A DNA stretch of 22,175 nucleotides, taken from a virus. A program made the translations under genes and the position numbers. Each line of letters begins with the position of its first letter. Within the stretch, counting starts at the first letter, position 1. The stretch is from positions 1 through 22,175 of the IMG/VR virus record IMGVR_UViG_3300022928_000136; one strand, written 5' to 3'. The notes under the pieces were generated by a model. It made no database searches. It was not told the DNA's origin and was given only the letters and a program-made list of their open reading frames with translations. Positions 3,001 to 21,707 of the stretch are shown here, in pieces.

Positions 3001-6000
3001 AATTCTAATTACAGGTTGCGTAGCAGACACATCTAACTTAGCTCCAGGATTATCAGTACCTATACCAACGTTACCACCCTCAAAATATGTATCACCACCA
3101 CCGCTAACTCTGAATACTGTTCTCGCATCTGTAGAATCACGAAGAATAAAGTCATCGTTACTTCCTACATACTGAATCCAAGATTGAGCAGCTGATGTAT
3201 TCGTAAGCATAAATACAGGGCTTCCAGCTTTTGATATCTCAAGCTCTGCATCAGGACTAGTAGTCCCGATACCAACGTTGCCGTCCCCACGAACATACAT
3301 TCGTGTACTTCCGTTAGAAATTAATTCTAAAATATAAGTTGATGCACTTGCGCTTGTTCCTGCATTAATATAACCTCCATAACCACTTCCGTGTGCAAAA
3401 AATGCTGAAGTTGAATTATTTGATCTAAACTTAGTAGCCCAATCATTGGAAGCTCCTTCCACGTGTAATCTATGATCTGGACTATCAGTCCCGATACCAA
3501 CGTTGCCTAACTTGTTGATACGCATATGTTCTACTGGAGCATCGCCACCTGTCTGTGTAGCAAATCCTAATGCAGAACCACCGTTGCCGTTACTAGTATC
3601 CTTTATGGAGCGTATTTCAGTTTTAATTATCTGGTTATTGCTTCCGCTCCAGTAACGACCATTCATCTGTATGATGTTCTGTATGTCGTTTTGGTCTACT
3701 AGGGCTGCATCATAATTATTAAACTGTATGAGGGTAGCTCCACTTGTTTTATTTGAACCAACATATAGGTTACTTGTTGCACGAATTTGACCATCAACAT
3801 CAAGTTTAACTCCTGGATTGGTAATACCAATACCAACGTTACTACTAAACCAAGAATCAACAGTACCTATTACCGCCTTTTCTACATTCTTACCTCTAAA
3901 CCTAGCAATAGCTCCATCAGAGTTTCCTCTGTTAAATGTGGACTCTCCTGCGTCTACGTATAGTTTAGTTGCTGGAGCAGTTGTACCGATTCCAATGTTT
4001 CCTGATTGTTTTACAACAAATAAAGGTGACCAAGTATCATCTGTTGAATCTGCATCTTGACTACCAACGGAAATTTCAAATGCAGCATCTACATTTTCTT
4101 GCGCTGCAAGCATCCAGTTATAATGAGTCGCTCCTGTCTCAAAGAATAAGTCTGGAGATGAATTACTAATTCTAAGATTATTAGTTGTAGTGTTACCTCT
4201 GTCTGTTACAGACTGAAGCGTATCTTCAATAGTAGAAGTGTCTACTGTAATGTTACCAGAAGCGTCTGACTTTAGATACCCTGCCGTGTATTGAGGAAGC
4301 TGTATTGCTCCATCTGACTCAATTACAAGTCCTATATTTGAGGTAGTTCCGTCAACAGTAGAGAAACTCAGTCTCGTAGAGTTTGTAGTACCACTCCAAT
4401 CTTCTGAAGCCTCCATCCAAATTCTACCCCCTACAACAGAATCAGTACCATTGTGACCTGAGAACTTGATGCTACCAAGATCATTGGTGTCAAATATTGT
4501 TTGGTCATCCTTGTGCAACCATAGGTTAGCAGGAGCAGAACCGCTACCTCTAACCATTAGATTCTCAATAAGTGAATCGTGGTTAAATGAAGAGCTGTAT
4601 GTTAGGTTTGCACCAACGGTAAAGGTATTGCTTGGAGCAGTGTTGCCTATACCTACGTTACCACCATTAGTAATATAGAATCTAGATGATCCGCTTTTTT
4701 TAATGTTTACTAAATCTGCTGTTCCGTTGTTATCAAGGTTTAGCATAAAAGTTCCACCGTGATTACCTACAGCAAAGAAAGAACCATTGGTAATCATACC
4801 GTAATTATCCGCTGCTGAATAAGAACGTATGTTGCCTCTAACATCTAGCTTTTCATCTGGACTATTAGTCCCAATACCAACGTTACCACCGCTAGTAATG
4901 CGCATACGTTCAGTATTGCCCGAAGTTGAGAAAAACCTTAATGCTCCTGAAGAGACGCCATTGTCGTAGTCAATTCTACCATTGGTTTGAGCCAAGATGA
5001 TATCATCACTGATTTTCATCTTACCAACTACATCTAGTTTCTGTGCTGGGTTGTTCGTTCCTATACCAACTTTCCCACTTCTCATTGTAAGTGTTTGCGT
5101 AGCAGTACCACCTGAAATTGTTTGGAAAGTCAATGATCCGTCTTCAGATCCATCTGTTACATCTTCTGCCTTTGCAGTTAAAATAACATATCTAGTGTCC
5201 TGACTTGCATCATTGTATCCTCTAAAATCTAAAAGACCTAATTCTTCACCATCCGCAGGAACTGCGTTGTGTTTAAATTGTAACCAGCTTCTATCACTAG
5301 AGGCAGCTCCAAATAACATCTGTGCATTACCGTCACTAACGTCTAACTTAGCTCCAGGATTAGTAGTGTTAATACCAACGTTACCAGATGAATTAATCAT
5401 CATTGGATATGTAGACTGTCCTACATTGTGGAAGTAAAGTGAGTCTGTATTTGTGTAAATGTTAAACTCGCCAGTTGCGCTTGTAGTTCTCTTTAGTTTA
5501 AGCTGTGTATTAGAAGTAGATACCTCAATGTTTAAACCACCAGTCATCGTATCACCAGTAACAGCTACAAAGTCTGTTGAAGAAGAAGAGGGGATGTAAC
5601 TAGTTTCAATGACGTTTCCGCTACTATCTACAGCTAATGCATATGCAGCTGTGCCTGTGAAGGCGTTGCTTCCGTATTCGTTTAACTTTATCTGACCGTT
5701 AGTCGCTATTGCAAACTTTTCGGTTAATGTCGTACTGCCAAATGCACCAGAGGTGTATATACCAATATTACCAGATTGGTCTGTTAAATATCTTGATACA
5801 GGATAAGCTCCTTGATACATATCAATGATACCACCTCTGTTTGAACCTTCTAATCTAAACGAAGCGTAAGAATTGCTTGCGGATTCTTTTAAATGCAGCT
5901 TTTCAATTGGACTAGTAGTTCCAATACCAACGTTACCACCATCGGCTACAAGGGTTGTGTAGTTTTCCGAGTTACCGAATGCTGCTTTTCCGTTGCCTAG

Positions 6001-6819
6001 ATTACCAAAATAAGCATACCCGTTACCACCTTGAACAAAAGATACTTGATTAGAACCGCCATCTGATGTTACAAAATAACCACCTCGTACATCTAATTTT
6101 CTAGAAGGACTAGTAGTTCCAATCCCAACGTTGCCTGAAGTATCAATCCGCATACGTTCTGCTGCTCCTGCTACAAACTGTACAGTGTCGTCATTTGGTA
6201 AGTATACGGAAGCACCAAAGTCCTGATTGCCCATCGCAGCTCCAGATGCTCCTCCTTTAATGTAGAAGTACCCGTTTGTGTAATGTGTAATACCAGCTAC
6301 AGGGATACTCCCGCTCTGTCCTAATTTTATTGCTCCACTTACCTCTAACTTAACGGAAGGACTAGTAGTCCCAATACCAACGTTACCGTTAGCAAGTATA
6401 CGCATCCGTTCAATATTGTTGCTAGTAAATCCAAAGTAGTGGTTTGTTTGTGTTCCAATATAACCTCCATTACCATCAGAGTAGAAGTGGGATTTAACAC
6501 TTGCTCCATTGTTCGCAGTGTAAATAATACCACCTCCTCCAGTAGATTTACCTTGAACTTCTAATGTAGACCAAGAAGCACCGACAGCTTGAGGACTAGT
6601 AGTGCCGATACCTACGTTACCTGAAGAATCAATGGTTAGCCTGTATGCAGAACTTGTAACGTCATATATTGATAATCCATTACTGTCTACTCCCAAATTC
6701 CAAGTTCTTCCGCTTAGTACTCCAGTTCTTTTTAGGTTTATTCCAGTTCCGTCAAATGACTGGTTTCCCACAACGGTTAAAGTTGCTGTAGGATTAGTAG
6801 TACCAATACCTACGTTACC
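1..6819 (-). repeat. Array of about 26 in-frame GNVGIGTTSP repeat motifs
   Basis: On the minus strand the first Gly codon of each motif starts at 6819, 6621, 6387, 6135, 5937, 5769 (variant GNIGIYTSG), 5385, 5076, 4887, 4662, 4002, 3843, 3507, 3282, 3075, 2772, about 2506 (KVGIGTGSP), 2283, 2049, 1830, 1578, 1299, 1074, 582, 360 and 174. Nearly all positions are multiples of three, so the repeats are in register with the fibre gene. The plus strand shows the complement as near-identical 29-base blocks such as ggactagtagtcccgatacc followed by aacgttgcc. Spacing is 159-336 bases except for gaps of 660 (4002-4662), 492 (582-1074) and 384 (5385-5769). The sequence between motifs is divergent. This is a coding repeat, not a CRISPR or satellite array. 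Confidence 0.95.
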
Positions 6820-7485
6820 TGCTGAGGTGATACGAACCTTTTCAGAGTTGTCTACTTTAAACTGAATAACACTATTACTATCTGAATTATTTGCGTCAGC
6901 TCCGACAGTTAAGTTACCACTAAAAGATTCTACTCTACCACTACCTCCTACTGTGCCTAACTCTGTATATGAACTTGATAAAGCATTTGTTCTTTGAACT
7001 CTAAATGCAGCGTCATTATCAGTTGTATTACTAGCTATAGCACTTCCAACAGTAATATCATTAGCTGTAGTATTCCCTCTATCTGTAACAGAGTCTAACG
7101 TATCAGTCTCGTTAGTAAGGAAGGAGCTGGTGTCTACACTAACCACACCATTAGCATCGGTCTTTAAGAAACCACCAGTAATAGCAGGTAGCGTTAACCC
7201 ACCTCCGATAGTAAATGTACCTCCAGCTTGTGTAGTAATGATGTTCCCAGTAGATGTAATCAAGAATACATCTTGATCCGTAGGAGTAGTCAATCGTAAG
7301 TCTACATCAGACGAGATAGACAGCTCACTACCGTCATAAGTTATAAATGAATCACCGCTATTGTTTCCAATTCTTAGAATCGGTGTTGCTGTGTCTTTGA
7401 GATATAAACTTGATAATCCTGTACCCGATACACTACCGTCAATTACGATGTGTTCAAAGTCATCTAACCTAGATAGGAACTTCAT
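1..7485 (-). CDS. Giant repetitive tail fibre / adhesin, 3' end missing (runs off left edge)
   Basis: A single open frame of 2,495 codons starts at ATG 7485 and reaches the window edge with no stop. The first upstream in-frame stop is TAA at 7491-7489, which fixes the start to 7485 or later. The protein (MKFLSRLDDFEHIV...) is Ser/Thr/Gly/Asn-rich and beta-type, with no signal peptide or membrane segment visible. About 26 copies of a GNVGIGTTSP-type motif are spaced mostly 60-110 residues apart, often preceded by ERMRI and followed by KLDV. All copies share one frame. An N-terminal cassette (residues about 40-150) partly recurs at 583-765 and 4180-4320. A DTMTGGLNI fibre motif lies near 5530-5560. 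Such repeats are typical of long phage fibres and Bacteroidota adhesins, many of which end in a self-cleaving S74 chaperone domain; that end would lie outside the window. It has its own promoter after a terminator. Likely role: host-surface contact as a trimeric fibre (inference). Confidence 0.9.
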   Translation of the reverse strand, partial: MKFLSRLDDFEHIVIDGSVSGTGLSSLYLKDTATPILRIGNNSGDSFITYDGSELSISSDVDLRLTTPTDQDVFLITSTGNIITTQAGGTFTIGGGLTLPAITGGFLKTDANGVVSVDTSSFLTNETDTLDSVTDRGNTTANDITVGSAIASNTTDNDAAFRVQRTNALSSSYTELGTVGGSGRVESFSGNLTVGADANNSDSNSVIQFKVDNSEKVRITSAGNVGIGTTNPTATLTVVGNQSFDGTGINLKRTGVLSGRTWNLGVDSNGLSIYDVTSSAYRLTIDSSGNVGIGTTSPQAVGASWSTLEVQGKSTGGGGIIYTANNGASVKSHFYSDGNGGYIGTQTNHYFGFTSNNIERMRILANGNVGIGTTSPSVKLEVSGAIKLGQSGSIPVAGITHYTNGYFYIKGGASGAAMGNQDFGASVYLPNDDTVQFVAGAAERMRIDTSGNVGIGTTSPSRKLDVRGGYFVTSDGGSNQVSFVQGGNGYAYFGNLGNGKAAFGNSENYTTLVADGGNVGIGTTSPIEKLHLKESASNSYASFRLEGSNRGGIIDMYQGAYPVSRYLTDQSGNIGIYTSGAFGSTTLTEKFAIATNGQIKLNEYGSNAFTGTAAYALAVDSSGNVIETSYIPSSSSTDFVAVTGDTMTGGLNIEVSTSNTQLKLKRTTSATGEFNIYTNTDSLYFHNVGQSTYPMMINSSGNVGINTTNPGAKLDVSDGNAQMLFGAASSDRSWLQFKHNAVPADGEELGLLDFRGYNDASQDTRYVILTAKAEDVTDGSEDGSLTFQTISGGTATQTLTMRSGKVGIGTNNPAQKLDVVGKMKISDDIILAQTNGRIDYDNGVSSGALRFFSTSGNTERMRITSGGNVGIGTNSPDEKLDVRGNIRSYSAADNYGMITNGSFFAVGNHGGTFMLNLDNNGTADLVNIKKSGSSRFYITNGGNVGIGNTAPSNTFTVGANLTYSSSFNHDSLIENLMVRGSGSAPANLWLHKDDQTIFDTNDLGSIKFSGHNGTDSVVGGRIWMEASEDWSGTTNSTRLSFSTVDGTTSNIGLVIESDGAIQLPQYTAGYLKSDASGNITVDTSTIEDTLQSVTDRGNTTTNNLRISNSSPDLFFETGATHYNWMLAAQENVDAAFEISVGSQDADSTDDTWSPLFVVKQSGNIGIGTTAPATKLYVDAGESTFNRGNSDGAIARFRGKNVEKAVIGTVDSWFSSNVGIGITNPGVKLDVDGQIRATSNLYVGSNKTSGATLIQFNNYDAALVDQNDIQNIIQMNGRYWSGSNNQIIKTEIRSIKDTSNGNGGSALGFATQTGGDAPVEHMRINKLGNVGIGTDSPDHRLHVEGASNDWATKFRSNNSTSAFFAHGSGYGGYINAGTSASASTYILELISNGSTRMYVRGDGNVGIGTTSPDAELEISKAGSPVFMLTNTSAAQSWIQYVGSNDDFILRDSTDARTVFRVSGGGDTYFEGGNVGIGTDNPGAKLDVSATQPVIRITNTEDKTWSVGDNIGKLEFYTKDASNPNGTKVATYIQSINDVGSSVPAGALVFATSPGGGASVAATEVMRITGHSGGNVGIGTSSPGSKLDVRGGALFVGDYTGTVTPTDGIWIERPSGNSTQILMYTTGSSVFRISSDGTTANIGWSSGADREVNFQNTGAGTIKVGIGTGSPNATLDVNKETVGEYAYFGSGATRQLRLSSYNTASEHAGHQINASSGNGELKLATNSIAAITIDNSQNVGIGTTSPSSKLDIVLDSVGGLKVDTNSDGGATITTYQGSTNSNIRQLEFNVQTFQVKTGIPQGTSTTDALFIDSSQNVGIGTTSPDKTLTVGGTNTTHGIDIKTKIGSTVYKLWEAEQYFSDEGYQGIYYQNVKKIQFRANGDSYLNGGNVGIGTTSPTGKFHIDNPDTVANQPALVVNQDDNAAAIANFYQLGVQAFSLTTTGTNSGVLLIKSGGSNVVQVSTSGNSYFNGGNVGIGTSSPGYKLSIDDSSVTSTPKTLLQLDGSNITDNGGYNIDFRTSTNDLADRFVARIQGVRESTGALSKLSFWTESGTALQERMTIRASGNVGIGTTSPVTKLDVAGGWITVDNGYGVAFGSGGATPDDYLKLNDTGSGSLMNLVQDGTSRFNIEGVTGDAYIQGSTGIGTQSPATKLHVVGTAETRLRVGSSNASSNVVLELRDENTPTGQGTVITYNNSTGETYFNNAMSTATTDFHFQSGEYGTANDFFTLSNSGGNAILHLKTTGGDSFITYENATNELAVASDGDLRLTTPTDQDVFFISSGGNIETTQAGGSVSMGGDLVVDGNVGIGTTSPVSVLHIKTQSDTAVNQGFVVERSANNDRGYINYQGGAFRIVATDSDPIKLGQVSNPDRVTILGDGNVGIGTTNPSQKLHVVGKALITDDVQLTGSNPRIDFNSNGASSLRFYDTTAAAERMRIDANGNVGIGTTSVPSEANLSLAAKTTTEGGHLVINKATSSTHATHIDNNTDTFRIMKGTDS

Positions 7486-7936: not shown

Positions 7937-8292
7937 TGTGGTTGATTGTTGTATTCTTGTTCGTACAAATCGTCTAGTCCGTAGAAGGTGTGTGCCTTTG
8001 TTGTAGGGTCACAGTAGATGCGGTATGCATCAAAGCCTTCTGCCTCTTCTTCATTCCATAGGATGTCTACAGAGTATTCTGTTTCAAACACAGCTTCAGT
8101 AACAATTGTATCAGGATCACCTTCAGCATAAACTGGAGGAGTAGTCATAATATGACCTATCTCTACAACAGTTGCTCCGTCAATGCGTGTAGCAGTCTCG
8201 CCATCAGGCATTTCTTCGCTAACCTCAATGGTAGCTTTTACTGTTTCCCAAGCTTCCTTGGATTCAAATTGATATTTTAGAAATCTTGCCAT
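7933..8292 (-). CDS. Small acidic protein of unknown function
   Basis: A 119-residue acidic protein (MARFLKYQFES...). The start at 8292 shares its A with the TAA of the upstream spike protein in a TAATG junction, and its own TGA overlaps the next ATG. The C-terminal half (VDILWNEEEAEGF, then AYRIYCDPTTKAHTFYGLDD) resembles small phage proteins that carry a VDILW...HTFxG-type signature and sit beside fibre genes. I know of no assigned function for those. No membrane segment, signal peptide or catalytic motif is visible. A structural or assembly role is inferred only from location. Confidence 0.8.
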   Translation of the reverse strand: MARFLKYQFESKEAWETVKATIEVSEEMPDGETATRIDGATVVEIGHIMTTPPVYAEGDPDTIVTEAVFETEYSVDILWNEEEAEGFDAYRIYCDPTTKAHTFYGLDDLYEQEYNNQPQ

Positions 8293-9593
8293 TATAGGGT
8301 TGTTAATGTTATTGCTTCTTCTGGTGTTAGTTGCTGGTCAAAGAACATAATCTCTTTAACTGCGTTACAGTTCTGCACAGGCTCAAAGTTAAAGTTGTTT
8401 ATCTTAATAGGATTAGAAGTATGGTTTTCCGTAACAACCGCAACTCCGTTTAAGTACAACTTCCATTGACTAGCCGTCCAAGAAAATACCATTTTGTTAT
8501 CTTGATCCACATTAAGCTGCACTGTTTCAGCTGATCCCGTGCTTCCATCGTGTACATTGTACCACATCCACTGCACTGTGCCTGTACCAAATTCTCCTCC
8601 AGCTGTGCTATCAGTAGAGTAAAAAGTAAACGACTCTCCAGAGTCGGTAGCGTCTTCCAGCCACATTGTTCTAGTGGAAGTTACACGTGAAGATGATCTA
8701 GGACGCATATTTAAATACACAGCACCTGAAGACTCACCGAAGATGTTGTTTGCTTGTAGGTCTGTAATGTATAAATCAGAACGTGGACGTGTTACAGTGG
8801 AAGCTTCTGTCTTTATATAACTAGTAGGCTCAAGACCTTCATAAGCAGTCCACTCTTCAAGTTGTCCTCCCCAGGCTAAAATACCTCCAGTTGGAACAGT
8901 GCAGGTTTCAAGTCTACCTCCATTTGCATCATCAATAAGAGCAGTGATAATACGACCATTTGAGTTTGTTGAAAAAGACTCCATTGTAACAAAAACACGA
9001 TACCACCCATCGTTACCTACGGCTTCAATACCGTAAGCTAAAAATGCATCATAGTTATCTGAGAATGTTACAGTGCCGTCAATAATGTCAAAGTTTATAC
9101 GGCTACCGTTAAAACCAGTAGACCCTGTCATTTGAATATATCTAGCTCCATTAGACTTCACATAAATGCTATGAGTATACCAACGATTATCTGTTATAAC
9201 AGTATTCTGCATAAAGAAACAAGAATTGTTACTAGTTGCTTGATCTATTTTAACAGCGTTGATTAAACCCTCTGGTGATATTCCTGCATTTGGAGTTCTT
9301 ACAGTACTACCCTGAGAAAAATCCCAACCATAAAAATTGTATGAATACGGATATCTATTCGTAGAACCAATCTCATACAACATATACGGACTACCATCTA
9401 ACCATTCCACTAGTGGTACGTGAGTTGCTTGCTCTTTTACCTCGCCACAATCTGTAAGACGATTAGCAACAGAGTTTCTTCCGTAAGTAAACTTGCCTGC
9501 ATCGGTCAATGGTTTCTCAGCCCAAAGCTCTCCAGCTTTATATGCTGACCCACCTGTTAAGATTAATGAAGCCTTGTCGTATATCTTACCCAT
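8292..9593 (-). CDS. Spike-domain plus LamG-like virion protein (433 residues)
   Basis: I place the start at ATG 9593 (MGKIYDKASLILTGG), where it overlaps the upstream TAA in a TAATG junction. An upstream ATG at 9647 would add 18 residues and overlap the preceding gene by 55 bases. Residues 1-70 align by eye with the start of the next gene upstream (DKASLIL versus DKACLIF, then VANRLTDCGEV versus VATRYNEDGKI). Residues about 70-275 form a carbohydrate-binding-like phage spike domain with its hallmark segments STNR, HSIYVKSNG, NDGWYRVFVTM, WGGQLE and TSYIKTEAS. Residues about 290-430 look like a LamG/concanavalin-type lectin fold (WKLYLNGVAV, then IMFFDQQLTPEEAITL). Likely surface-exposed and glycan-binding. 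The adjacent upstream gene is a diverged paralogue. Confidence 0.88.
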   Translation of the reverse strand: MGKIYDKASLILTGGSAYKAGELWAEKPLTDAGKFTYGRNSVANRLTDCGEVKEQATHVPLVEWLDGSPYMLYEIGSTNRYPYSYNFYGWDFSQGSTVRTPNAGISPEGLINAVKIDQATSNNSCFFMQNTVITDNRWYTHSIYVKSNGARYIQMTGSTGFNGSRINFDIIDGTVTFSDNYDAFLAYGIEAVGNDGWYRVFVTMESFSTNSNGRIITALIDDANGGRLETCTVPTGGILAWGGQLEEWTAYEGLEPTSYIKTEASTVTRPRSDLYITDLQANNIFGESSGAVYLNMRPRSSSRVTSTRTMWLEDATDSGESFTFYSTDSTAGGEFGTGTVQWMWYNVHDGSTGSAETVQLNVDQDNKMVFSWTASQWKLYLNGVAVVTENHTSNPIKINNFNFEPVQNCNAVKEIMFFDQQLTPEEAITLTTL

Positions 9594-10885
9594 TATAGTT
9601 CTTTTAATGCAGTTAATCTGTTGTTTGTAATAGTAGGAGACTCCCAAGTAAGGTCATTGCGATCCACTAACTCTTGGTAATCATCGTATGATGTGAGGGC
9701 TATACATTCAGCACTGTTTAAAGCGTCTGCCGAAAAGTACATCTCATCAATCATCATAGTACCGCCTTGAGGTCTAAAATAAATATAAGCTACATCATTC
9801 CAAGCTTGTGTAGAAGTTGAAACACTATTAGATTCTACGCCATTCAAAAAGAATGTGCCATTAGAATCATCATTTAGCCTCCATATAAACTTAGTCTTCT
9901 TTGAGTTTGCTATTGGTGTAGAACTAGTAATAACCTCACTACCCCAGCTATCTGCAAAACCAAATCTATTTTCATAAAAATAAGCACGACCATAATTTGA
10001 TGCAGAACTTCTAATCCATATAGAGTCTGTGGCAGTATCATCATCAGCACTAAGGTCAATCATAAACGTACCCTTAACTTGCTTAAACATATTGCTAAGA
10101 GTAGTTATTTGCATTTGCTCTAATCCTCTAGATGCTGTTGATCCTGTAGTCTTAATAAGACTTGTAGGGAATGGTGATGGCTCTGCTTGTAACCCATATA
10201 TGTATATACCCTCGCCACTAGTAGATGCTGCATCGTAATAGTTTGCAAGAGGATATTGAGTTGGACTTATATAAACAGAATCAGAAGATGTTTGAGTTGA
10301 TGTCCAGGTCATCCAAACACGATACCATCCATTACCTACATCTTTAATACCATATGTAGTATCTGATGCATTACCTACAATTTTACCTTGGCTAAGATCA
10401 ACTTTAATTCCTGCACTACCATAATGGTGAAATTGAAAACTAGGATACTCCCCAGCTTTTGCATATATAGAAACCGTGTATTGTGTTCCATTCGTAGCTG
10501 CAAAAGATGTGCTTAAATAAGCAGGGTTAGCAGTAGAAGAGTTTATATTCACTTTTACGCCTTTCCCCGATAACGCATCTGGAGAGTCTTGATTATCAAT
10601 AGTTATTACACGAGTCTTACTAAGACTACCTAAATTCATCCCATTAGATATTCTATTTGTTCTAGAGTCTTCTAAAAGCAAATGAGGACATTTTGTAAGG
10701 TCAGAGGGATCATAGTTTATACGTGGAATTCCACCAGACACCTCTTCAATCTTACCGTCTTCGTTGTACCGTGTAGCAACTCCAGTACGTGTGAAAGTAA
10801 AGTCTTCACCACGAAAGCTATATGCTTTACCTGACTTAACCCTAGAGGGTTTGAATATTAAACACGCTTTATCTTTTAATGACAT
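9593..10885 (-). CDS. Spike-domain plus LamG-like virion protein (430 residues), paralogue of its neighbour
   Basis: The 430-residue protein starts MSLKDKACLIFKPS. Residues 27-80 carry the pattern FTFTRTGVATRYNEDGKIEE, PRINYD and LLLEDSRTN, which matches the R...AT...G.I...PR.dYd...LLLE..TN opening common to phage head-spike/fibre proteins. The spike domain spans about residues 80-260, with YTVSIYAKAGEY, GNGWYRVWMTWTST, YISPTQ, IYGLQAE and TSLIKTTGSTASR. Residues about 265-400 are a LamG-like domain (WRLNDDSNGTFFLNGVE, then MMIDEMYFSADALNSAE). One base separates its ATG from the stop of the 800-residue gene, and its own TAA shares an A with the next ATG. Probably a receptor- or glycan-binding decoration; the ligand cannot be read from the sequence. 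Confidence 0.88.
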   Translation of the reverse strand: MSLKDKACLIFKPSRVKSGKAYSFRGEDFTFTRTGVATRYNEDGKIEEVSGGIPRINYDPSDLTKCPHLLLEDSRTNRISNGMNLGSLSKTRVITIDNQDSPDALSGKGVKVNINSSTANPAYLSTSFAATNGTQYTVSIYAKAGEYPSFQFHHYGSAGIKVDLSQGKIVGNASDTTYGIKDVGNGWYRVWMTWTSTQTSSDSVYISPTQYPLANYYDAASTSGEGIYIYGLQAEPSPFPTSLIKTTGSTASRGLEQMQITTLSNMFKQVKGTFMIDLSADDDTATDSIWIRSSASNYGRAYFYENRFGFADSWGSEVITSSTPIANSKKTKFIWRLNDDSNGTFFLNGVESNSVSTSTQAWNDVAYIYFRPQGGTMMIDEMYFSADALNSAECIALTSYDDYQELVDRNDLTWESPTITNNRLTALKEL

Positions 10886-10886
10886 A

Positions 10887-13289
10887 TTACTTCTTGTCTA
10901 ATTCAGTTAGGTAATTCACTAAACAGCTGTGTGCTTCTACTGTAGCACCATCACTAGCTGTTCTCTCAATGTAAGCATCAAGCTCTGAAGCAACCTTAGT
11001 ACCTCCAAAGGTAGAAGCCTTCTCGTTAAAGTTATCTGCTACTTGATCCGCTGTAAGGGCGTAGTTGTATACTCTTGCGTTTGCAATTTGACCATATAGC
11101 CATTGTTCTCCATCAGATGGGGCATAGCCAATCCTTAGTGGCGAACTGTTTGTTGAAACAGTCCAAGAATTAGTAAAGGAATTTTGCAGTGAACCATTGA
11201 TATATATTTTTTGACTACTTGGCTCAATAACAGCTACAATGTGTTGATAGCTTCCATCGGTGAAATTAAAAGCAGAAAAAACACCTCCAATACCAATATA
11301 GCCTCCATTTGCCGAATTTGTTGAATACACACGAAGTGTAAATCCAGAAGCTCCATTTGACCCTGTGGCTTTATCAAAAATTGGCATATATCTATTACTT
11401 GAACTTAACTCGCCCGTATTGTTATATACCCAAGCCTCTATTGTCATTGGAATGACGGTATCAGTACTCGCATTATCCTGAACCTCTGCCCACGAATTCC
11501 CATCAAAGTTATAAGCACCTGATGCACGAGGGTTAGATATAGTGTTACCAAACACGTCTTTACCAGGTGTTGAGCCTTCTTGGATTAATACAGGAGATGT
11601 TTGAGCTGTTGCTTCAGTGCGGATATAAGGAGATGGCTGACTTGTAGGACTAGAAGCATAATTAGCACCCCATATATACAGGTAATCAGTGCCATTACCT
11701 GTGTATTGAACTACTGAATCTGAAGTATTTGGAGAAATACCTACAGTAAAATTACCACTTGAGCTTGACGCTGTATACCTTGCCCAAAATCTAAACCAAC
11801 CGTTTCCTGCATTTTCAGAACCATAAGATTCGTATGCGTTATAACTATTACCAGCAGCGTGACCTATATAAGTTCCGTCATTTAAATTCCACTTAGCTAT
11901 TCTACTTCCATTACCCTGATAAAAATATATACCATTAATACCTTCTCCTTTTTTAGCGTAAATAGAAACCTCATACAATACCCCCGAAGTTGTTGTCACA
12001 CTTTTTAATAGTGAATCGTGGTACGCATTGCTTGAATTTACTGTAGACTTATCAGCAGTAAATGTTTCATTAGGGGCATTAGTTTGGTCAGCGGTAATAC
12101 TAGTATTTCCATATGACCAGCCAGTTTCAAAAGACTCACTGTAGGATAAAAGGTTTGTTCCTTTATTCCAATCCATTAAAGCGGTCTGAGGTAACGGTTC
12201 TGGAAGTCGTGTTACCCAAGTAGCACCATTAATAGTACCGTTGTAGTAGTTAGGTACAACCTCTTTAACAGATACGTTGTCTACAGTAGCTGAAGAGTTT
12301 GAACTATATCCGTGTTTAAACTTTAGACTACTGCTACCGCTGCCGTAATACATATCGTATACAAACGTACCGTTACCTAAAGGAACAGCTTGTTGTGTAT
12401 TTCCTAGGTTCACGAAGATGTTGAATGCTGTTGAGGTATAGTCAAACTTGACTCGGTAGAATTTTCCTACCTCTAAGTCTAGCGGTTGCTCTACAAATGA
12501 TCCTGAGAGTGGGGCGTTAGTCCATATAGCCTTACCTCCTGCAATCTCTACGGTAGAGGAATCTGTAGTTCCCCACTTCTGACAAGTCTCGTCAAATCCT
12601 GCGTTAGAGATAAGCTCTGTGCCTATAGCGTTTGCGTTTGCATTATATACATATGACCCAGCACCTTCCGTCATTGGTAGGTGTAGCACAAGGCTTGTAG
12701 CATCTACTCCTGTAGGTACAGCTTGTTCTGGGTTATCGTATAGTTCGGCTACTTGTTCTGCGGTAAGGGCTACATTAAATAATCTTATGTTTGAAAGATT
12801 ACCAGCATAAAATTGACTACTATTATCAGCTCCTATAGAGAGATCTTGATTACTAATGTCGTGAACAGTAAAAGTTGTACTGTCTAATGTTTGAGAAACG
12901 CCATCAATATAAATAACCACATTATTGTTTCCGTTGTAAGTAATGACAACGTGATGCCATTTATTATCATTAAAAGTATCAACAGTAGTAACTCCATTAA
13001 CACCGTCATAGGTGTTAATCTTACCATTAAAAACCGTAGAGTTAAAATAATTTCCCCCGCTATTTATTTGCCAAACCCTTTCGTTACTGCTTATTGATGT
13101 TTTAAAATAATATGATAAAGTACGGGTACTTCCACTTACAGTAAATCCGCTGACAATTATTTCATCATTCACCCCATCAAAGCTCAACCCCTTACCAGAG
13201 TATATAGAAGCTCTATTAGAACCTAAGTCTGAACCATCCGTTGTTCTTGGAAGAACTGGTTTGTTATATGGTGTTGCTATTGCTGCCAT
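10887..13289 (-). CDS. Large multidomain adhesin with two LamG domains and two carbohydrate-binding-like domains
   Basis: An 800-residue protein. Domains in order: LamG-1 at about residues 32-190 (GLSFDGVNDEI, WHHVVITYNG, VVIYIDG, NLSNIRLFNVALTAEQVAEL); a family-4/9-type carbohydrate-binding-like domain at about 225-345 (ELISNAGFDE...W, then ATVDNVSVKEV); a phage spike domain at about 380-575 (TNLLSYSESFETGW, YEVSIYAKKGE, GNGWFRFWARYT, SPYIRTEAT); LamG-2 at about 590-760 (AYNFDGNSWAEV, PMTIEAWVYN, KIYINGSLQ, QIANARVYNYALTADQVAD); and a short C-terminal helix. No signal peptide or transmembrane segment was seen. The spike domain is shared with the next two genes downstream, suggesting duplication. 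The start shares its A with the upstream TAA (TAATG). A virion-attached glycan-binding role is likely; hydrolase activity is not supported by any catalytic motif I can see. Confidence 0.9.
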   Translation of the reverse strand: MAAIATPYNKPVLPRTTDGSDLGSNRASIYSGKGLSFDGVNDEIIVSGFTVSGSTRTLSYYFKTSISSNERVWQINSGGNYFNSTVFNGKINTYDGVNGVTTVDTFNDNKWHHVVITYNGNNNVVIYIDGVSQTLDSTTFTVHDISNQDLSIGADNSSQFYAGNLSNIRLFNVALTAEQVAELYDNPEQAVPTGVDATSLVLHLPMTEGAGSYVYNANANAIGTELISNAGFDETCQKWGTTDSSTVEIAGGKAIWTNAPLSGSFVEQPLDLEVGKFYRVKFDYTSTAFNIFVNLGNTQQAVPLGNGTFVYDMYYGSGSSSLKFKHGYSSNSSATVDNVSVKEVVPNYYNGTINGATWVTRLPEPLPQTALMDWNKGTNLLSYSESFETGWSYGNTSITADQTNAPNETFTADKSTVNSSNAYHDSLLKSVTTTSGVLYEVSIYAKKGEGINGIYFYQGNGSRIAKWNLNDGTYIGHAAGNSYNAYESYGSENAGNGWFRFWARYTASSSSGNFTVGISPNTSDSVVQYTGNGTDYLYIWGANYASSPTSQPSPYIRTEATAQTSPVLIQEGSTPGKDVFGNTISNPRASGAYNFDGNSWAEVQDNASTDTVIPMTIEAWVYNNTGELSSSNRYMPIFDKATGSNGASGFTLRVYSTNSANGGYIGIGGVFSAFNFTDGSYQHIVAVIEPSSQKIYINGSLQNSFTNSWTVSTNSSPLRIGYAPSDGEQWLYGQIANARVYNYALTADQVADNFNEKASTFGGTKVASELDAYIERTASDGATVEAHSCLVNYLTELDKK

Positions 13290-15959: not shown

Positions 15960-18401
15960 TCATTGATTACCAAATAGTTGACTCATCATGTCTGAACCGT
16001 CTTCTAACTCCCCTCTTTTACCCTGTCTCTGAGAAATCATTTTAGATTGTTCAACAGCTTGTTTTTTAACACGCTCGTCTTTACGGTCTTCTTTTTTGGT
16101 TTCTAGACCGTTTCTAAAGTTTCTTTCCTGGGCCTTTTCCATCTGAATGACAGATGCTTTTGCTCCTTCTAGCTGACCCTTTAATTGGTACTCTAGTTGT
16201 AGGAGTTGGGCTTTAGACTGGGTTTCAGCCTGGATCTCTGCAAGTTTAGCTTGAGTCTGAGCTTGAAGCTCCTGCAGCTTGCCCTGGCTTGCCGCCATTG
16301 CTGTTTGCTGGTTCATCTGAGCCTGCATCTGAGAGTTCTGCTGTGCAATCATCTGCTGCTGTCTCATGCGCTTCTTGCGTCTGATAATCAATAGGCGTTC
16401 AGCCTGATCAACATCTTTAAGCTGTCGTACAGCTATTGCGTCTTCTAAGTCGATCTCTTTTTGAGCTAGTGCTACTTGAATGTTTTGCTCTAGGTATGCT
16501 TTCTCTGTATCGTCCATCTCAGTCTGAATCTTCACACCGAAATTGTACATAGGCAGCTCGCTGAAAGAAGAAAGCACAGCCATGTTAGACTTACCTATAG
16601 CTCGCTCGTAAGCCTGGTATAAAACAGATTGAACAGGAAGGATCTGAAGACACTTAACGATATCCTCACATACTCTACTGTATAGGTAGATCGCTGCATT
16701 AGTAATATCATAGATAGCGTTGTTACCAGCTGCCATAGCTTGCTGACGAACACCAACCAGTTGCTCTCCTTTTGGAGATGTTCCATCCATTACTTCGTTA
16801 ATACCTGTCGTATCACGTATAAGACGGAGATTATGGTTGTAGATAGCAATAAGCTCATTGATATTCCTAATGCTATTATCCAGACTCCTAACTGGAGGGT
16901 TCTGGAATCCACCTTCTGGATTTTTTGAGCGATAGTAGAATACACCTGTTTGTTCATATATATCCTGAATGTCTAGCGGCTGTAGTTCTCCGCCTTTACC
17001 TAATTGAACGTTTTCAAGTCCCTCGATGTCTACAATCAAACCGTCTGGTTTGGCCTTAGCAATAGCTTGCTGTAATTTCAAATGAGACAGTTGTAGCTGA
17101 TCCGCAAAACCAATTACAGAACCTACAAGTGATTTAGGCATCATTCTGCGTAGGTTTGTAGAAACCACAGAGTATGAAAGTCTAGCACGTGTTAAGTCGT
17201 GTGCGTTTTTAGGGATGTTCTTTTTTTGACCGTAGTCAAACATATGATCTGTTCCAACGATATAGCTTCCGCCAAATACAGTTTGGATGCTCATGTGCTT
17301 AGGCTGTCTGTCGTATACAGACTCGCGAGGGGGGTTGTAGTCAAACCCTTTGTAGTATAGGTTTTTATTACCGAATCTAGACTCCTTCTCCTCGAACATC
17401 ATGTCGTCTGTAGAAAGGAACTCAAAATCCATTACCTCTACGATAAACTCATCGTACCCGTATGTTGTACGGTCCAAAGTTTCGTCATAGTACTTGTATG
17501 ATAGCTTATCTGCACGGTTCTGGTACTTGTTCTTTACCTTCTGTGCGATCATCTCATACTGCTCTTCTGTAAGCTCATCACGAGCAATACGCTTAAGCTC
17601 AGAGATGCTAATCTTCTTGATGTGTCCTGCATACATGAGGTCGCTAAATGTAGGGTCCTCGGTGTAGCTATGGAAGAAGTATGCTGGATCGATGTATTCC
17701 TCGGTGATTCCATAGTTAGGATCGTTGTTTCTTTTTACAACGCCCATGCCACAGATTACCAAGTCGTTTACCGCTCTTCTGTATACACGCTGATCAAAGT
17801 CATTCCACTCTAGTGTAATATTTGTTCCGATCTGTGCTGCTATCTCTGCAGATGTTTTAATGCTGGCATCCATGAAGATTTCAGCTTCTTCTGGAGTCTC
17901 TGGAATTGCACTGGTGTCGATTCCCGTTTTTACGCCCTGGTTGTTCAGGGCTTCGATCATCTTCTTGTTCTTTACCTCAAACATCTTCTCAGCACGTTTA
18001 CGATCCTTCTCAGACTGAGATAGTGGGTCGATAGCGTTGAGGTTTGGATAAGGCTTTCTTGATAGAATATTGTTTACTACGATCTTTACAAACTTAGGGA
18101 CGATAGGCACTGGAGACCAGTCAAGGTTTAGCAACGTACCGTCCCCGTTGTTCGGATCTAAAGAATTTAGAATCTGTTTATAGATAGAAGTATCTTGTGT
18201 ACCATTCGCGTAGTCGCGGTTGGTTTCAAAGTCTTTAAGTCTACGTCTGAATAAACTTCGTTCATCGTCAGACTGACCCCACTGCTTTTCAATAGCCTTG
18301 GCGTATTTTAGACCATAAGACTTATTCGTCTTTTGAGAATAGTGTGAAAAGGGATCGGGAAAGTTACCGTACTTTCCTCTGTCATTATCATTATTGTACA
18401 T
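15960..18401 (-). CDS. Portal protein
   Basis: Starting at ATG 18401 (MYNNDNDRGKYGNFPDPFSH) it is 813 residues. A longer reading from TTG 18428 would begin inside a promoter-like element, so I reject it. It directly follows the large terminase, the classic order. The N-terminal half has portal-type features (WSPVPIVPKFVKIVVNNILS, a long acidic/helical insert, VYRRAVNDLVICGMGVVKRN). The centre carries the RDTTGINEVMDGTSPKGEQL segment, where portals of this group have a TGI...G turn before the clip/stem helix. The last 120 or so residues are Q/K-rich and strongly coiled-coil-like (MRQQQMIAQQ to QSKMISQRQG), resembling the C-terminal barrel or tail found in long podovirus-type portals. It forms the dodecameric DNA channel of the head vertex. 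Its large size and style recall crAss-like portals, which I cannot confirm. Confidence 0.9.
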   Translation of the reverse strand: MYNNDNDRGKYGNFPDPFSHYSQKTNKSYGLKYAKAIEKQWGQSDDERSLFRRRLKDFETNRDYANGTQDTSIYKQILNSLDPNNGDGTLLNLDWSPVPIVPKFVKIVVNNILSRKPYPNLNAIDPLSQSEKDRKRAEKMFEVKNKKMIEALNNQGVKTGIDTSAIPETPEEAEIFMDASIKTSAEIAAQIGTNITLEWNDFDQRVYRRAVNDLVICGMGVVKRNNDPNYGITEEYIDPAYFFHSYTEDPTFSDLMYAGHIKKISISELKRIARDELTEEQYEMIAQKVKNKYQNRADKLSYKYYDETLDRTTYGYDEFIVEVMDFEFLSTDDMMFEEKESRFGNKNLYYKGFDYNPPRESVYDRQPKHMSIQTVFGGSYIVGTDHMFDYGQKKNIPKNAHDLTRARLSYSVVSTNLRRMMPKSLVGSVIGFADQLQLSHLKLQQAIAKAKPDGLIVDIEGLENVQLGKGGELQPLDIQDIYEQTGVFYYRSKNPEGGFQNPPVRSLDNSIRNINELIAIYNHNLRLIRDTTGINEVMDGTSPKGEQLVGVRQQAMAAGNNAIYDITNAAIYLYSRVCEDIVKCLQILPVQSVLYQAYERAIGKSNMAVLSSFSELPMYNFGVKIQTEMDDTEKAYLEQNIQVALAQKEIDLEDAIAVRQLKDVDQAERLLIIRRKKRMRQQQMIAQQNSQMQAQMNQQTAMAASQGKLQELQAQTQAKLAEIQAETQSKAQLLQLEYQLKGQLEGAKASVIQMEKAQERNFRNGLETKKEDRKDERVKKQAVEQSKMISQRQGKRGELEDGSDMMSQLFGNQ

Positions 18402-18425
18402 AGCGTTTCGCAGAATACTTCCTCG

Positions 18426-18433
18426 CAAAGATA
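18426..18433 (-). promoter_or_regulatory. Bacteroidota-type -7 promoter element (TATCTTTG) of the portal gene
   Basis: TATCTTTG on the minus strand matches TAnnTTTG and is identical to the element before the giant fibre gene. It lies in the gap between the terminase stop (18454) and the portal ATG (18401), giving a leader of about 15-20 bases. No convincing -33 TTG is seen at the usual distance; the region there reads TTCG. Its presence argues that the in-frame TTG at 18428 is part of the promoter and not the start codon. Confidence 0.55.
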
Positions 18434-18453: not shown

Positions 18454-20580
18454 TCAGCGTCTTATCTCGTTGTTGTATCTGCGGAAGAATTTCTTGTCGT
18501 CAAAGGCAGACAACTTCTTTTCTTCTTTGTATTTCTGCGCTGCTAGTAGCGCTAGACCCGAACTAATCGTAAGGTCATACTTAGTACGGTTGTCTATTTT
18601 ATAGCCGATCCAGTCTTCCAGCGTGCGGTCAAAATACATGTTACCCATCTCGCCAGTTTCATTGTTTATCCCTACGTATTCCTCTATGTAAGCTTCTATA
18701 GCATGTGCGTGAGCCTGGATAACGTCTTGAGAGTTAGAGGGTATCCCCCTGGTCTTCACGTTCATTGATCCAGGAGTCTTCAAATGCTCTGGACGCTTCA
18801 TCACGTACTCTTCGTAACCCCTTGATTCAAAGTGCCTTACGATGCCGTACTTGTTGTTCTCGATTAACAGTGGATAGCCGTAAAATACAGCAGCCATAAG
18901 TACATCCTCGTAGAATATACGTGCCAGAGGAGGTCTTGATGCATACTCTGCAACAAACATATTGGGTGGGGCAGCCATGCTAAATTTATTGTACAGGTGA
19001 CATGCACCTTTAGACCCTCTGTTATCTGTGGTGGAGTCTAGGTCATAGCTATCGACACCTCCAACCCCTATGTGGTCGTTCGCGGGGTGCTTCTTGTTGT
19101 ACTTGATTACGTACTTATTCCTATCCTCTTGCTTAGGCATCCAAGATATTCTCCAGCGTCCTTGTGGGTTTGGGCTGAATACAACCTCGGTGTCACTTGC
19201 ACCATCCTTCCAGCTAAAGTTTCCTCTAACGACTGGGTTTGGATAAAGCTCTTGATTGTACTGGACCTGCTCGTATATCTTTCCAATATTAAATGTAGAT
19301 CCCTCGATGCTGTCGCGCATTGCTTCGTCAACGGTAAAGGGGAACTGACGTATAAATTCGTTTAGCTCACGGGCATCGTTCTTTAGTGCATCACGCTCAT
19401 TCTTTAAGTACGTCTTCGCGCCAATATCGACATAATCCCCATCAATCGTTTTAATTGGTTTCTCGGGATCTTCCACGATGGGGTTTCCATACTTGTCAAA
19501 GAAACCTTCCAGGGCTTCGTAGGCTGGTACAAAAAGTCTATAAAGGCCAGTCTTTGTTCTTCCGTTGGCGTTTCTGTCGTCTGGGTCTGAGTCTCTCCAA
19601 AGCTCCTTATACTGGTTACCACCCTTGTCCATAGGGTTGACAGTAGACCCCATAAGGCACTTCCCGATGATCTTTCGCCCAACAATAAGACAGGTACGCT
19701 CGATACGCCATGCTTCTCTAATGTCCGTAGGTTTCTCCCATTTACCGCTTTCATCTAAATAAAGTATGTGAAGCTTTTCACCATCGTATGCGTTATTCGT
19801 GGTGTTCTTCCAGTTGATAATAGTATTAAGAGCCTCTCCCTTGTTTGAGGTCTTGTTCTTTTTAGTAATACGCTTTGACGGCTCACGAAATGCAAGCTCC
19901 ATACGTGGATTGGTAGTACCGTCTTGAATAGGCTTGAAGAAAAATGGATAAGACTTAAACATAGGAACCACCTTTTTCATAAAGATGTTCTCCTGTGCAT
20001 CCTTACCTGTTTTAGACTGTATACCCAACAGCTTGTCTTTCACCTGAGTACCCTCGTCTACTAGTATCGCTGCAGATATATTGGTGTATCCAGAACGTCT
20101 ACACTTAGTGTACATCTGCCCTATAGATCTTGGGTCATACTCACATGCGGCAAAGTGGATGAATAGCCTTCTTTGAAACTCCAGGTAAGACGCATATCCG
20201 ATATCCATCTTACTCCATTGTAGCATCATATAGTGTCGCCCTGTAATGTAGATGCGTTCACCGTTATTAAAGAACCAAACACCTTCACGCCTGCGCTTAA
20301 ACTCCTGCTCGATATATGGAGAAAAACGTTTTTTGAAGTCGGATGGCATTTCGTACCACTCGTCCATAGAGCGAATCCTTTGCAGTTCTGCTGGCACAGG
20401 AAGTCTTTGCCACATTTGCATATCCAACTTACTTCCATAGTTGAGGATTTCTTTGTCTGGTGGCGCTTCTGGGAGCTGAATATCAAGCCCACCGACCTGT
20501 ATGACCTCGCCACCCGTATCGTTGGGACATATGTTGATAACGTAGTTATCGTACCCATCCACTTGTTTAAGTCCTGCCAT
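18454..20580 (-). CDS. terL: Terminase large subunit (ATPase and nuclease)
   Basis: A 708-residue DNA-packaging motor protein. The Walker A-like loop is KCRRSGYT at residues 159-166. Walker B is LHILYLDES at 270-278, with D276 and E277 as Mg-binding and catalytic residues. The coupling motif GSTVNP is at 311-316. The RNase H-like nuclease domain follows, with acidic candidates D510 and D513 (GGVDSYD), E574 (LIENN) and D619 (SQDVIQAHAHA). It cuts concatemeric phage DNA and pumps it through the portal at the procapsid vertex. The start MAGLKQVDGY lies 36 bases after the stop of the candidate small subunit. The length is at the upper end for TerL, with an N-terminal region of about 100 residues before the ATPase core. 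Its neighbours, portal downstream and helical small protein upstream, fit the packaging module. Confidence 0.95.
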   Translation of the reverse strand: MAGLKQVDGYDNYVINICPNDTGGEVIQVGGLDIQLPEAPPDKEILNYGSKLDMQMWQRLPVPAELQRIRSMDEWYEMPSDFKKRFSPYIEQEFKRRREGVWFFNNGERIYITGRHYMMLQWSKMDIGYASYLEFQRRLFIHFAACEYDPRSIGQMYTKCRRSGYTNISAAILVDEGTQVKDKLLGIQSKTGKDAQENIFMKKVVPMFKSYPFFFKPIQDGTTNPRMELAFREPSKRITKKNKTSNKGEALNTIINWKNTTNNAYDGEKLHILYLDESGKWEKPTDIREAWRIERTCLIVGRKIIGKCLMGSTVNPMDKGGNQYKELWRDSDPDDRNANGRTKTGLYRLFVPAYEALEGFFDKYGNPIVEDPEKPIKTIDGDYVDIGAKTYLKNERDALKNDARELNEFIRQFPFTVDEAMRDSIEGSTFNIGKIYEQVQYNQELYPNPVVRGNFSWKDGASDTEVVFSPNPQGRWRISWMPKQEDRNKYVIKYNKKHPANDHIGVGGVDSYDLDSTTDNRGSKGACHLYNKFSMAAPPNMFVAEYASRPPLARIFYEDVLMAAVFYGYPLLIENNKYGIVRHFESRGYEEYVMKRPEHLKTPGSMNVKTRGIPSNSQDVIQAHAHAIEAYIEEYVGINNETGEMGNMYFDRTLEDWIGYKIDNRTKYDLTISSGLALLAAQKYKEEKKLSAFDDKKFFRRYNNEIRR

Positions 20581-20616: not shown

Positions 20617-20913
20617 TTACTTTGAGAATCGCTCTGCGAATCCTCCTGAGTAGTCTTGCTCTTCTTCAATTCCTCCTGTTTCCTTAAGTTCTCTAACCAT
20701 TTGTTCGAGTCGCTGGTATTCAATAAGGAGTTCTTTTGCATCTGTAGCTGTTTGTTTTATACTCTGTAGTTCTGCCTTGCGTTGAGAACCAGATAGTTCT
20801 GCATCCACAGGTTTTCTTATTTCATCAATCATGTTATTGATTGCGATCTCCATAGATGCCAACAGTCTCGTTGACGCTTCTACTGTATTAAAGCTGTTCT
20901 TCTTCCTTGACAT
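20617..20913 (-). CDS. Helical small protein, candidate terminase small subunit
   Basis: A 98-residue mostly helical, charged protein. A basic N-terminus (MSRKKNSFNT) is followed by long helices rich in Glu, Gln, Lys and Leu, and an acidic C-terminus. Position immediately upstream of the large terminase and size are right for a small terminase subunit, which would recognise phage DNA and form a ring. However, no clear helix-turn-helix is visible and I do not recognise the family, so this is a context-based call. The ATG at 20913 overlaps the end of the GroES-like gene by 26 bases. Confidence 0.75.
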   Translation of the reverse strand: MSRKKNSFNTVEASTRLLASMEIAINNMIDEIRKPVDAELSGSQRKAELQSIKQTATDAKELLIEYQRLEQMVRELKETGGIEEEQDYSGGFAERFSK

Positions 20914-21484
20914 AGACTAGCTCTGATGTTCTCATTCGGTACACTGATGTACCGTCTATGAGTTCCATTTTATATTCTGAATTTTTCGTATAGCCCACCA
21001 GATCACCAGGCTTCGTTCCAATCCATTCTGAATCTTGGGGTAGGGTGAGTAGTTCGCCCTCCAGTTTAGGTTCTTCTGCGAGCTTAAGAACAATGCCAGA
21101 AGAAGTTGTTTCCTCTTTCGGCTTATCAGGGGGTAAAACGAAACACCAGTCACCAAGCATAGTAATATCACCAGCTTCATCTTCGACTGCGATAGCGTGA
21201 TTGCTATATCCTCCGTTGGGGTCATAATTAACCATGTATAGGTTTTCTCCAAGATCATAGGCTTGCTCCATTACTACGTGGTGGTGAAAATAAAGTACCT
21301 GGCCGACAGCTGCGCCACGGTAACTTACGGGGGGAGAGACTATTTGTCCGTAATTGTATCGGTGTTCAAACTCGTTGAACTTTGTGATGAGCTTAAGAGT
21401 TGTCTCATCGGACAACTTTATCTCGTCTTTAAACTTCTTGTCTATCCTTACGATGAAATGTTTTAACGGTCTCATATCAATCAA
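20888..21484 (-). CDS. Tandem GroES-like co-chaperonin protein
   Basis: A 198-residue protein with two GroES-like parts. Residues 4-75 begin MRPLKHFIVRIDKKFKDE, parallel to the MxIRPLxDRVIVK opening of GroES, and continue with GQIVSPP and AAVGQVLYFHHHVV in place of the GEVLAVG and VGDIVIF strands. Residues 111-192 restart the pattern: GDWCFVLPPDKPKEE, then SSGIVLKL at 128-135 (the GroES mobile loop that binds GroEL is GGIVL-type), LEGELLTL, KPGDLVGYTKNSEYKMELID and YRMRTSELVYV (like SESDILAIV). The first copy lacks a GIVL loop. Normal GroES is about 95 residues, so this is roughly double. By analogy with T4 gp31 it could pair with the host chaperonin to fold capsid or fibre proteins (inference). 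It overlaps the 76-residue gene start by 8 bases. Confidence 0.75.
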   Translation of the reverse strand: MIDMRPLKHFIVRIDKKFKDEIKLSDETTLKLITKFNEFEHRYNYGQIVSPPVSYRGAAVGQVLYFHHHVVMEQAYDLGENLYMVNYDPNGGYSNHAIAVEDEAGDITMLGDWCFVLPPDKPKEETTSSGIVLKLAEEPKLEGELLTLPQDSEWIGTKPGDLVGYTKNSEYKMELIDGTSVYRMRTSELVYVKEEEQL

Positions 21485-21707
21485 AATTTAAATCGTACTC
21501 GAGTATACACGGCATATCGTCAATGGCTTTCCATAGCATTGTGCCTTCCTCGTTCTCGATATAAATCAGATACCGTTTTTTTCCGTGATGGTGTAAATGC
21601 GCCTCGTCTTGAACAATTGCGCTTACTTTTCCTGCCCCTGCGCGCATGCCTACATAATAAGCCATGGCATCCTTCGGGTCTCTTCCGATGATAATTTTTC
21701 TAATCAT
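21477..21707 (-). CDS. Small protein of unknown function
   Basis: A 76-residue protein (MIRKIIIGRDPKDAMAYYVG...). It has an N-terminal beta-alpha start, a His-rich stretch (EAHLHHHGKKRYLIYIE) and an acidic end. I do not recognise a family. Its end overlaps the GroES-like gene by 8 bases, and a gap of 26 bases separates it from the upstream gene. The compact soluble look suggests an auxiliary protein; no function is assigned. Confidence 0.7.
   Translation of the reverse strand: MIRKIIIGRDPKDAMAYYVGMRAGAGKVSAIVQDEAHLHHHGKKRYLIYIENEEGTMLWKAIDDMPCILEYDLNFD

Follow-up and report, generated by a model that had tools for sequence, protein, structure and literature searches.

The viral DNA analyzed here, a stretch of 22,175 nucleotides (IMG/VR record IMGVR_UViG_3300022928_000136, positions 1 to 22,175; hereafter the window), encodes what is probably a tandem GroES-fold co-chaperonin that would function as a Cpn20-like lid for GroEL in the service of virion assembly. 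Chloroplasts and apicoplasts are known to contain tandem co-chaperonins, and the way in which their even-numbered domains serve a seven-fold chaperonin is a long-standing puzzle. This organellar protein, Cpn20, is a well-known precedent that was missing from the preliminary description of the window.

The gene and its genomic neighborhood

The open reading frame that had been reported at 20888-21484 is present, on the minus strand. The frame opens at a TTG codon (21484) that falls within the 3' end of the preceding ORF, and the aligned relatives begin at an ATG codon (21475) three codons inside the frame. Because the starts of the relatives align at this ATG, the coding sequence most likely spans 20888-21475 and specifies 195 amino acids, and the length of 198 residues given earlier would apply only if TTG 21484 is used. 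Within the clade to which the window belongs, the gene is under purifying selection, with a dN/dS of 0.13 over the whole protein.

The ORF directly upstream (76 amino acids; 21477-21707, minus strand) has its stop codon just before ATG 21475 and relatives in 105 loci, and it is likely co-transcribed with the tandem gene. Between the tandem gene and the terminase gene lies an ORF of 98 amino acids (20617-20913, minus strand), of which the start overlaps the end of the tandem gene and of which relatives were detected in 107 loci (tblastn). Its product, which holds this place in the window's clade, is probably helical, and its sole PHROG match is weak (phrog_20415, E 0.0012); location and length might be those of a small terminase subunit, but no family match pointed that way. 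The next large genes downstream encode the terminase large subunit (18454-20580, minus strand; phrog_6681, E 1.8e-197) and the portal protein (15960-18428, minus strand; phrog_6547, E 5.3e-186, and Pfam P22_portal at its cut-off) in a tight operon, which bears out the earlier placement of the gene beside the packaging genes. Moreover, a terminase gene was found downstream on the same strand in all 144 distinct family members that have at least 900 bases of downstream sequence.

Elsewhere in the window, three adjoining minus-strand genes (8292-9605, 9593-10885, and 10887-13289) share a match to the tail family phrog_5939, which hints at a duplication of tail or adhesion proteins. An open-ended minus-strand ORF of at least 2495 amino acids (1-7485), which runs off the window, consists of many repeats of the GNVGIGTTSP type, like those of long phage tail or fiber proteins.

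Family membership and distribution

Residues 4-193 of the protein match positions 1-199 of the 200 positions of PHROG_13932, 'co-chaperonin GroES' (E 1.8e-24), and a match to this family is common to 40 of 40 diverse members. A single profile search among viral contigs detected 526 relatives, and 540 were obtained with a Manatee-type query. The cultured members include gp096 of Cellulophaga phage phi13:2, gp089 of Cellulophaga phage phi38:1, and gp30 of a Flavobacterium elemovirus, and the members from Cellulophaga and Flavobacterium phages are already annotated as co-chaperonin GroES or cpn10. Likewise, 'chaperonin cpn10' is listed among the core genes of the Pervagoviridae (PMC8776804). The window's protein shares with the cultured members of PHROG_13932 the length of approximately 200 amino acids, the full-length family match, and the place before terminase and portal, but it is only some 19-25% identical to them, and its clade differs in having the docking motif in half 2 rather than half 1 and in comprising contigs without phage GroEL or single GroES. 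Tenacibaculum phage Gundel_1 encodes a related terminase, upstream of which no tandem protein was found. Four relatives were encountered in genome assemblies, all of them in Bacteroidota metagenome-assembled genomes (MAGs) and beside related terminases, which points to a Bacteroidota host; the window's virus is therefore likely a Bacteroidota-infecting tailed phage.

A tandem or double GroES in phages was not found described in the non-subscription literature that was searched. The earlier remark that no well-studied phage co-chaperonin of this type is known thus holds for that literature, but it needs qualification, since the family is catalogued as PHROG_13932 and carries GroES or cpn10 annotations in cultured phages. 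What was not found in the literature searched is the tandem architecture in phages, the swap of the loops between lineages, and the link with companion genes.

Sequence evidence for two GroES domains

Profile-profile comparison of each half with GroES aligned both halves to GroES and thereby supports the claim of the preliminary description of two GroES-like segments in one chain. Against a profile composed of E. coli GroES and 12 phage GroES proteins, half 2 (residues 101-195; 20891-21175, minus strand) scored 95.7% (E 8.9e-9; hhalign). Half 1 (residues 1-100; 21176-21475, minus strand) scored 82.5% (E 9.8e-6; residues 1-63 on GroES 3-67), a value that depends on the combined alignment, as half 1 of the window's clade alone scored 18% and half 1 of 21 sequences outside this clade gave a weak 1.5%. 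Column-shuffled controls (30 per half) reached maxima of 3.7% for half 1 and 0.5% for half 2. In both halves the alignment to GroES is in register starting at the first strand, and in both the GroES roof hairpin falls opposite a gap. Direct profile alignment of half 1 with half 2 gave no usable signal (7% at best), and an internal duplication is therefore not supported by sequence.

The Pfam Cpn10 model scored 12.9-15.4 bits in half 2 of the window's protein, below its cut-off of 21.1 bits, and exceeded this cut-off in relatives (22.1 bits, 27 bits in a phi38:1-like half 2, and 34.6 bits in a phi13:2-like half 2); overall, Cpn10 was seen in 24 of the 40 family members. Half 1 was recognized by Pfam neither in the window's protein nor in its relatives, and its placement comes from profile alignment and fold comparison. 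Neither the single protein nor the profile detected GroES in sequence searches of the PDB, which returned chance matches only.

Predicted structure and comparison with known co-chaperonins

An AlphaFold model of the protein, based on an alignment of 40 relatives, had a pLDDT of 86.3 and a pTM of 0.81. Confidence was lower at both loop positions, with residues 21-40 in blocks of 70 and 66 pLDDT, and it was low in the half-2 loop that carries SGIVL. The best PDB matches were 7ekq_R and 7ekq_Q (194 and 205 residues, aligned along their entire length; E 5.9e-5), with GroES and Cpn10 chains next in rank, and the Foldseek matches to GroES chains had a probability of 1.00. The structural matches had a moderate TM score of 0.56 with high rmsd, in which domain orientation perhaps plays a part. 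The structure list names 7EKQ only as CrClpP-S2c; on the basis of the chain lengths and of a study of the plastid CLP system (PMC8889267), which describes CPN11/20/23 in complex with Chlamydomonas ClpP, we read these chains as the two-domain CPN20 and CPN23. A second AlphaFold model, made for the distantly related Manatee-type lineage, had the same top match, i.e., the 7EKQ chains over both halves, and subsequently GroES and Cpn10; the folding alignments drew on viral-contig copies of the lineages and share members, so that the two models are not fully independent. The T4 gp31 structure (1g31) matched the window's model at E 0.64 and the Manatee-type model at E 0.039, and the four best matches among viral structures include phi18:3 cpn10 and proteins of 183-186 and 304 residues.

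The protein is thus predicted to adopt the GroES beta-barrel fold, and prediction and profile alignment together indicate two GroES domains arranged head to tail, as in Cpn20-type proteins. The preliminary description had named a prediction without a GroES fold in either half, or with a better match to another beta-barrel family, as evidence that would speak against it; the model instead matches tandem co-chaperonins and then GroES.

The Cpn20, Cpn21, and CPN23 proteins of chloroplasts and apicoplasts share the head-to-tail arrangement with the window's protein and, as 7EKQ chains Q and R, provide its best fold match over both halves, but identity is approximately 15% and nothing indicates that the fusions share an ancestor. 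Moreover, each domain of Cpn20 has both a mobile and a roof loop (PMC3542282), whereas the window's protein lacks the roof hairpin and has one canonical loop only; it is therefore not filed as Cpn20, although it may work like it. T4 gp31 is likewise a phage-encoded, roofless protein of the GroES type (PMC6318259), the roof being absent here from the alignment of both halves, but gp31 is a single-domain subunit that forms a heptamer, unlike the tandem chain of the window, and its fold match is weak. With GroES/Cpn10 (PF00166) the protein shares the predicted barrel fold and the register of the half-2 loop, and it differs in being tandem, in scoring below the Pfam cut-off, and in missing the roof and the half-1 motif.

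Probable divergent specialization of the two loops

The SSGIVLKL stretch is present in half 2 as reported, at residues 128-135 in the earlier numbering and 125-132 when counted from ATG 21475. In the profile alignment its SSGIVL aligns on AGGIVL of GroES, and SGIVL (residues 126-130; 21086-21100, minus strand), in register with GGIVL of E. coli GroES, is the putative site at which the mobile loop of half 2 docks on GroEL. Among 64 sequences of the window's clade, the motif has S in 62 and G in 60, I, L, or V at position 128, I or V at position 129, and L130 throughout. The dN/dS of this stretch is approximately 0.5, a noisy estimate over eight codons with few synonymous changes, and it indicates weaker constraint than in half 1. 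In codons 125-132 (21080-21103) pS is 0.145, compared to 0.386 for the rest of the gene; this low synonymous variation could be chance over eight codons or reflect an additional constraint on DNA or RNA.

At the mobile-loop position of half 1 the protein has the segment LKLITKFNEFEHRYN (residues 27-41; 21353-21397, minus strand), which is rewritten and highly conserved. Its consensus in the window's clade is LKLVxKFNEFEHRxN, with K32, E35, F36, R39, and N41 invariant in 64 of 64 sequences, and its dN/dS of 0.026 makes it the most constrained stretch of the protein. A mobile loop with a hydrophobic docking tripeptide is, judged by sequence, thus kept in half 2 and absent from half 1. The earlier view that only the second copy keeps the motif is correct for the window, but its statement that the first copy diverges requires revision, since no other part of the protein is as conserved as the half-1 loop. 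The dN/dS and the invariant residues of half 1 led us to reject the idea of a decayed copy, and its strong constraint argues for specialization rather than decay.

In other lineages the arrangement of the loops is the reverse. Half 1 there carries GGI(E/D)(F/L)I or (N/S)GL(I/V)L, while the half-2 loops comprise 17-19 residues without the motif in the Manatee-type and elemovirus lineages, and 26-28 residues with hydrophobic triplets in the phi13:2 and phi38:1 types. These patterns suggest an ancestor with two loops, followed by lineage-specific specialization.

Companion chaperonin genes

A GroEL gene is present in 8 of 9 Manatee-type, 6 of 6 elemovirus, and 2 of 3 phi38:1-type records, and not in phi13:2, and a separate single-domain GroES is encoded in nearly all Manatee-type, elemovirus, phi38:1, and phi13:2 records. 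The elemoviruses have their own adjacent groES-groEL pair (record L082, 5035-6848) besides the tandem protein, and both genes likewise occur in most Manatee-type records, so that these phages may run a complete chaperonin system. In 12 contigs of the window's clade, of up to 65 kb, neither GroEL nor a separate GroES was found; because a search for end repeats in the three largest of them detected none, their completeness is unproven and the two genes can be called absent only provisionally. Should they be truly absent, the protein of this clade probably works with host GroEL, and this same clade retains the canonical docking motif in its second half.

Functional interpretation

A Cpn20-like lid would operate as follows. 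A few copies would close into a small roofless ring, which may be a homo-oligomer, e.g., four chains contributing eight domains in the manner reported for chloroplast Cpn20, or may be mixed with host GroES, e.g., three chains and one GroES contributing seven domains. The ring would dock on host GroEL via the SGIVL loop of the second domain, and the loop of the first domain would have been rewritten for another job, perhaps contact between subunits or with a virion protein. The lid could then help to fold large virion proteins (capsid, portal, or tail), as T4 gp31 helps to fold gp23. The roof hairpins missing from both halves would fit a wider, gp31-like dome; in gp31, roof loops are absent and the chamber is slightly larger (PMC6318259). 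A tandem precedent is Plasmodium Cpn20, which replaces GroES in E. coli (PMC3542282), and Cpn20 functions despite the symmetry mismatch (PMC5780408). Against the lid stand the shortened, motif-free half-2 loops of the Manatee-type and elemovirus proteins, which imply that docking through half 2 is not general to the family, and the separate GroEL and single-domain GroES of many relatives, which would render a plain lid function redundant there. The weaker constraint on the half-2 motif compared to half 1, and the moderate TM score and high rmsd of the structural matches, likewise count against it.

These observations bear on two further readings. In a narrower version of the lid, the protein would work only as a mixing subunit inside rings with single-domain GroES of host or phage, retuning the chaperonin like plant Cpn20 with Cpn10. 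We consider this possible, but less probable than not, in view of the separate GroES that accompanies the tandem protein in records of the elemoviruses, the Manatee type, phi38:1, and phi13:2, the fact that seven is not divisible by two domains, and the known hetero-oligomers of Cpn10 and Cpn20 (PMC5780408; PMC4242682); however, only host GroES could serve in the window's clade, where contigs contain no single GroES, and homo-oligomeric Cpn20 also works (PMC5780408). The main rival, which we judge rather unlikely, is that the GroES fold no longer caps a chaperonin and has been re-used in packaging or assembly, either as a partner of terminase or portal, or as a scaffold. The invariable place directly before terminase (144 of 144) would agree with this, as would the strongest constraint lying in a non-canonical half-1 loop, the loss of the half-2 motif in two large lineages, and the separate GroEL and GroES of most relatives. 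Yet gene order alone is no proof of a packaging role, the lineages that lost the motif keep GroES-like G-G-I-x-(F/L) or G-L-x-L in their half-1 loops, the window's clade keeps SGI(I/V)L, and half 2 is still recognized as Cpn10 in several lineages.

Two other readings concern the identity of the fold and its partner. Since chains of the ClpP complex 7EKQ provide the best structural match, and the title of a paper cited in PMC8889267 states that the CPN11/20/23 complex inhibits ClpP, the protein could be imagined to cap host ClpP and to block or redirect proteolysis, as CPN11/20/23 on Chlamydomonas ClpP. This is very improbable: tandem co-chaperonin structures simply happen to be available in 7EKQ, the match thus reflects domain architecture and not partner, and the window contains no proteolysis-related content. 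Even more strongly disfavored is an unrelated beta-barrel with a chance GIVL string, for which the subthreshold Pfam score and the PDB sequence searches without GroES could be put forward, but profile, PHROG, and fold searches consistently identify GroES, and the shuffled controls scored far lower.

Significance

A more speculative reading, to which we assign little likelihood, is that the tandem co-chaperonins of Bacteroidota phages are lids with unlike faces, in which one domain docks and the loop of its partner is a site for virion or packaging proteins, with these roles swapped between lineages. If this is true, a client receptor would be built into the lid, in correspondence with the presence or absence of a GroEL gene in the phage. 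The phage group offers natural variation in which domain keeps the docking loop and in the presence of phage GroEL and GroES, and its cultured members, i.e., phi38:1, phi13:2, Calle, and the elemoviruses, make the tandem co-chaperonin testable. As a constant neighbor of terminase in a large group of phages, the tandem architecture represents a second case beside that of chloroplasts and apicoplasts.
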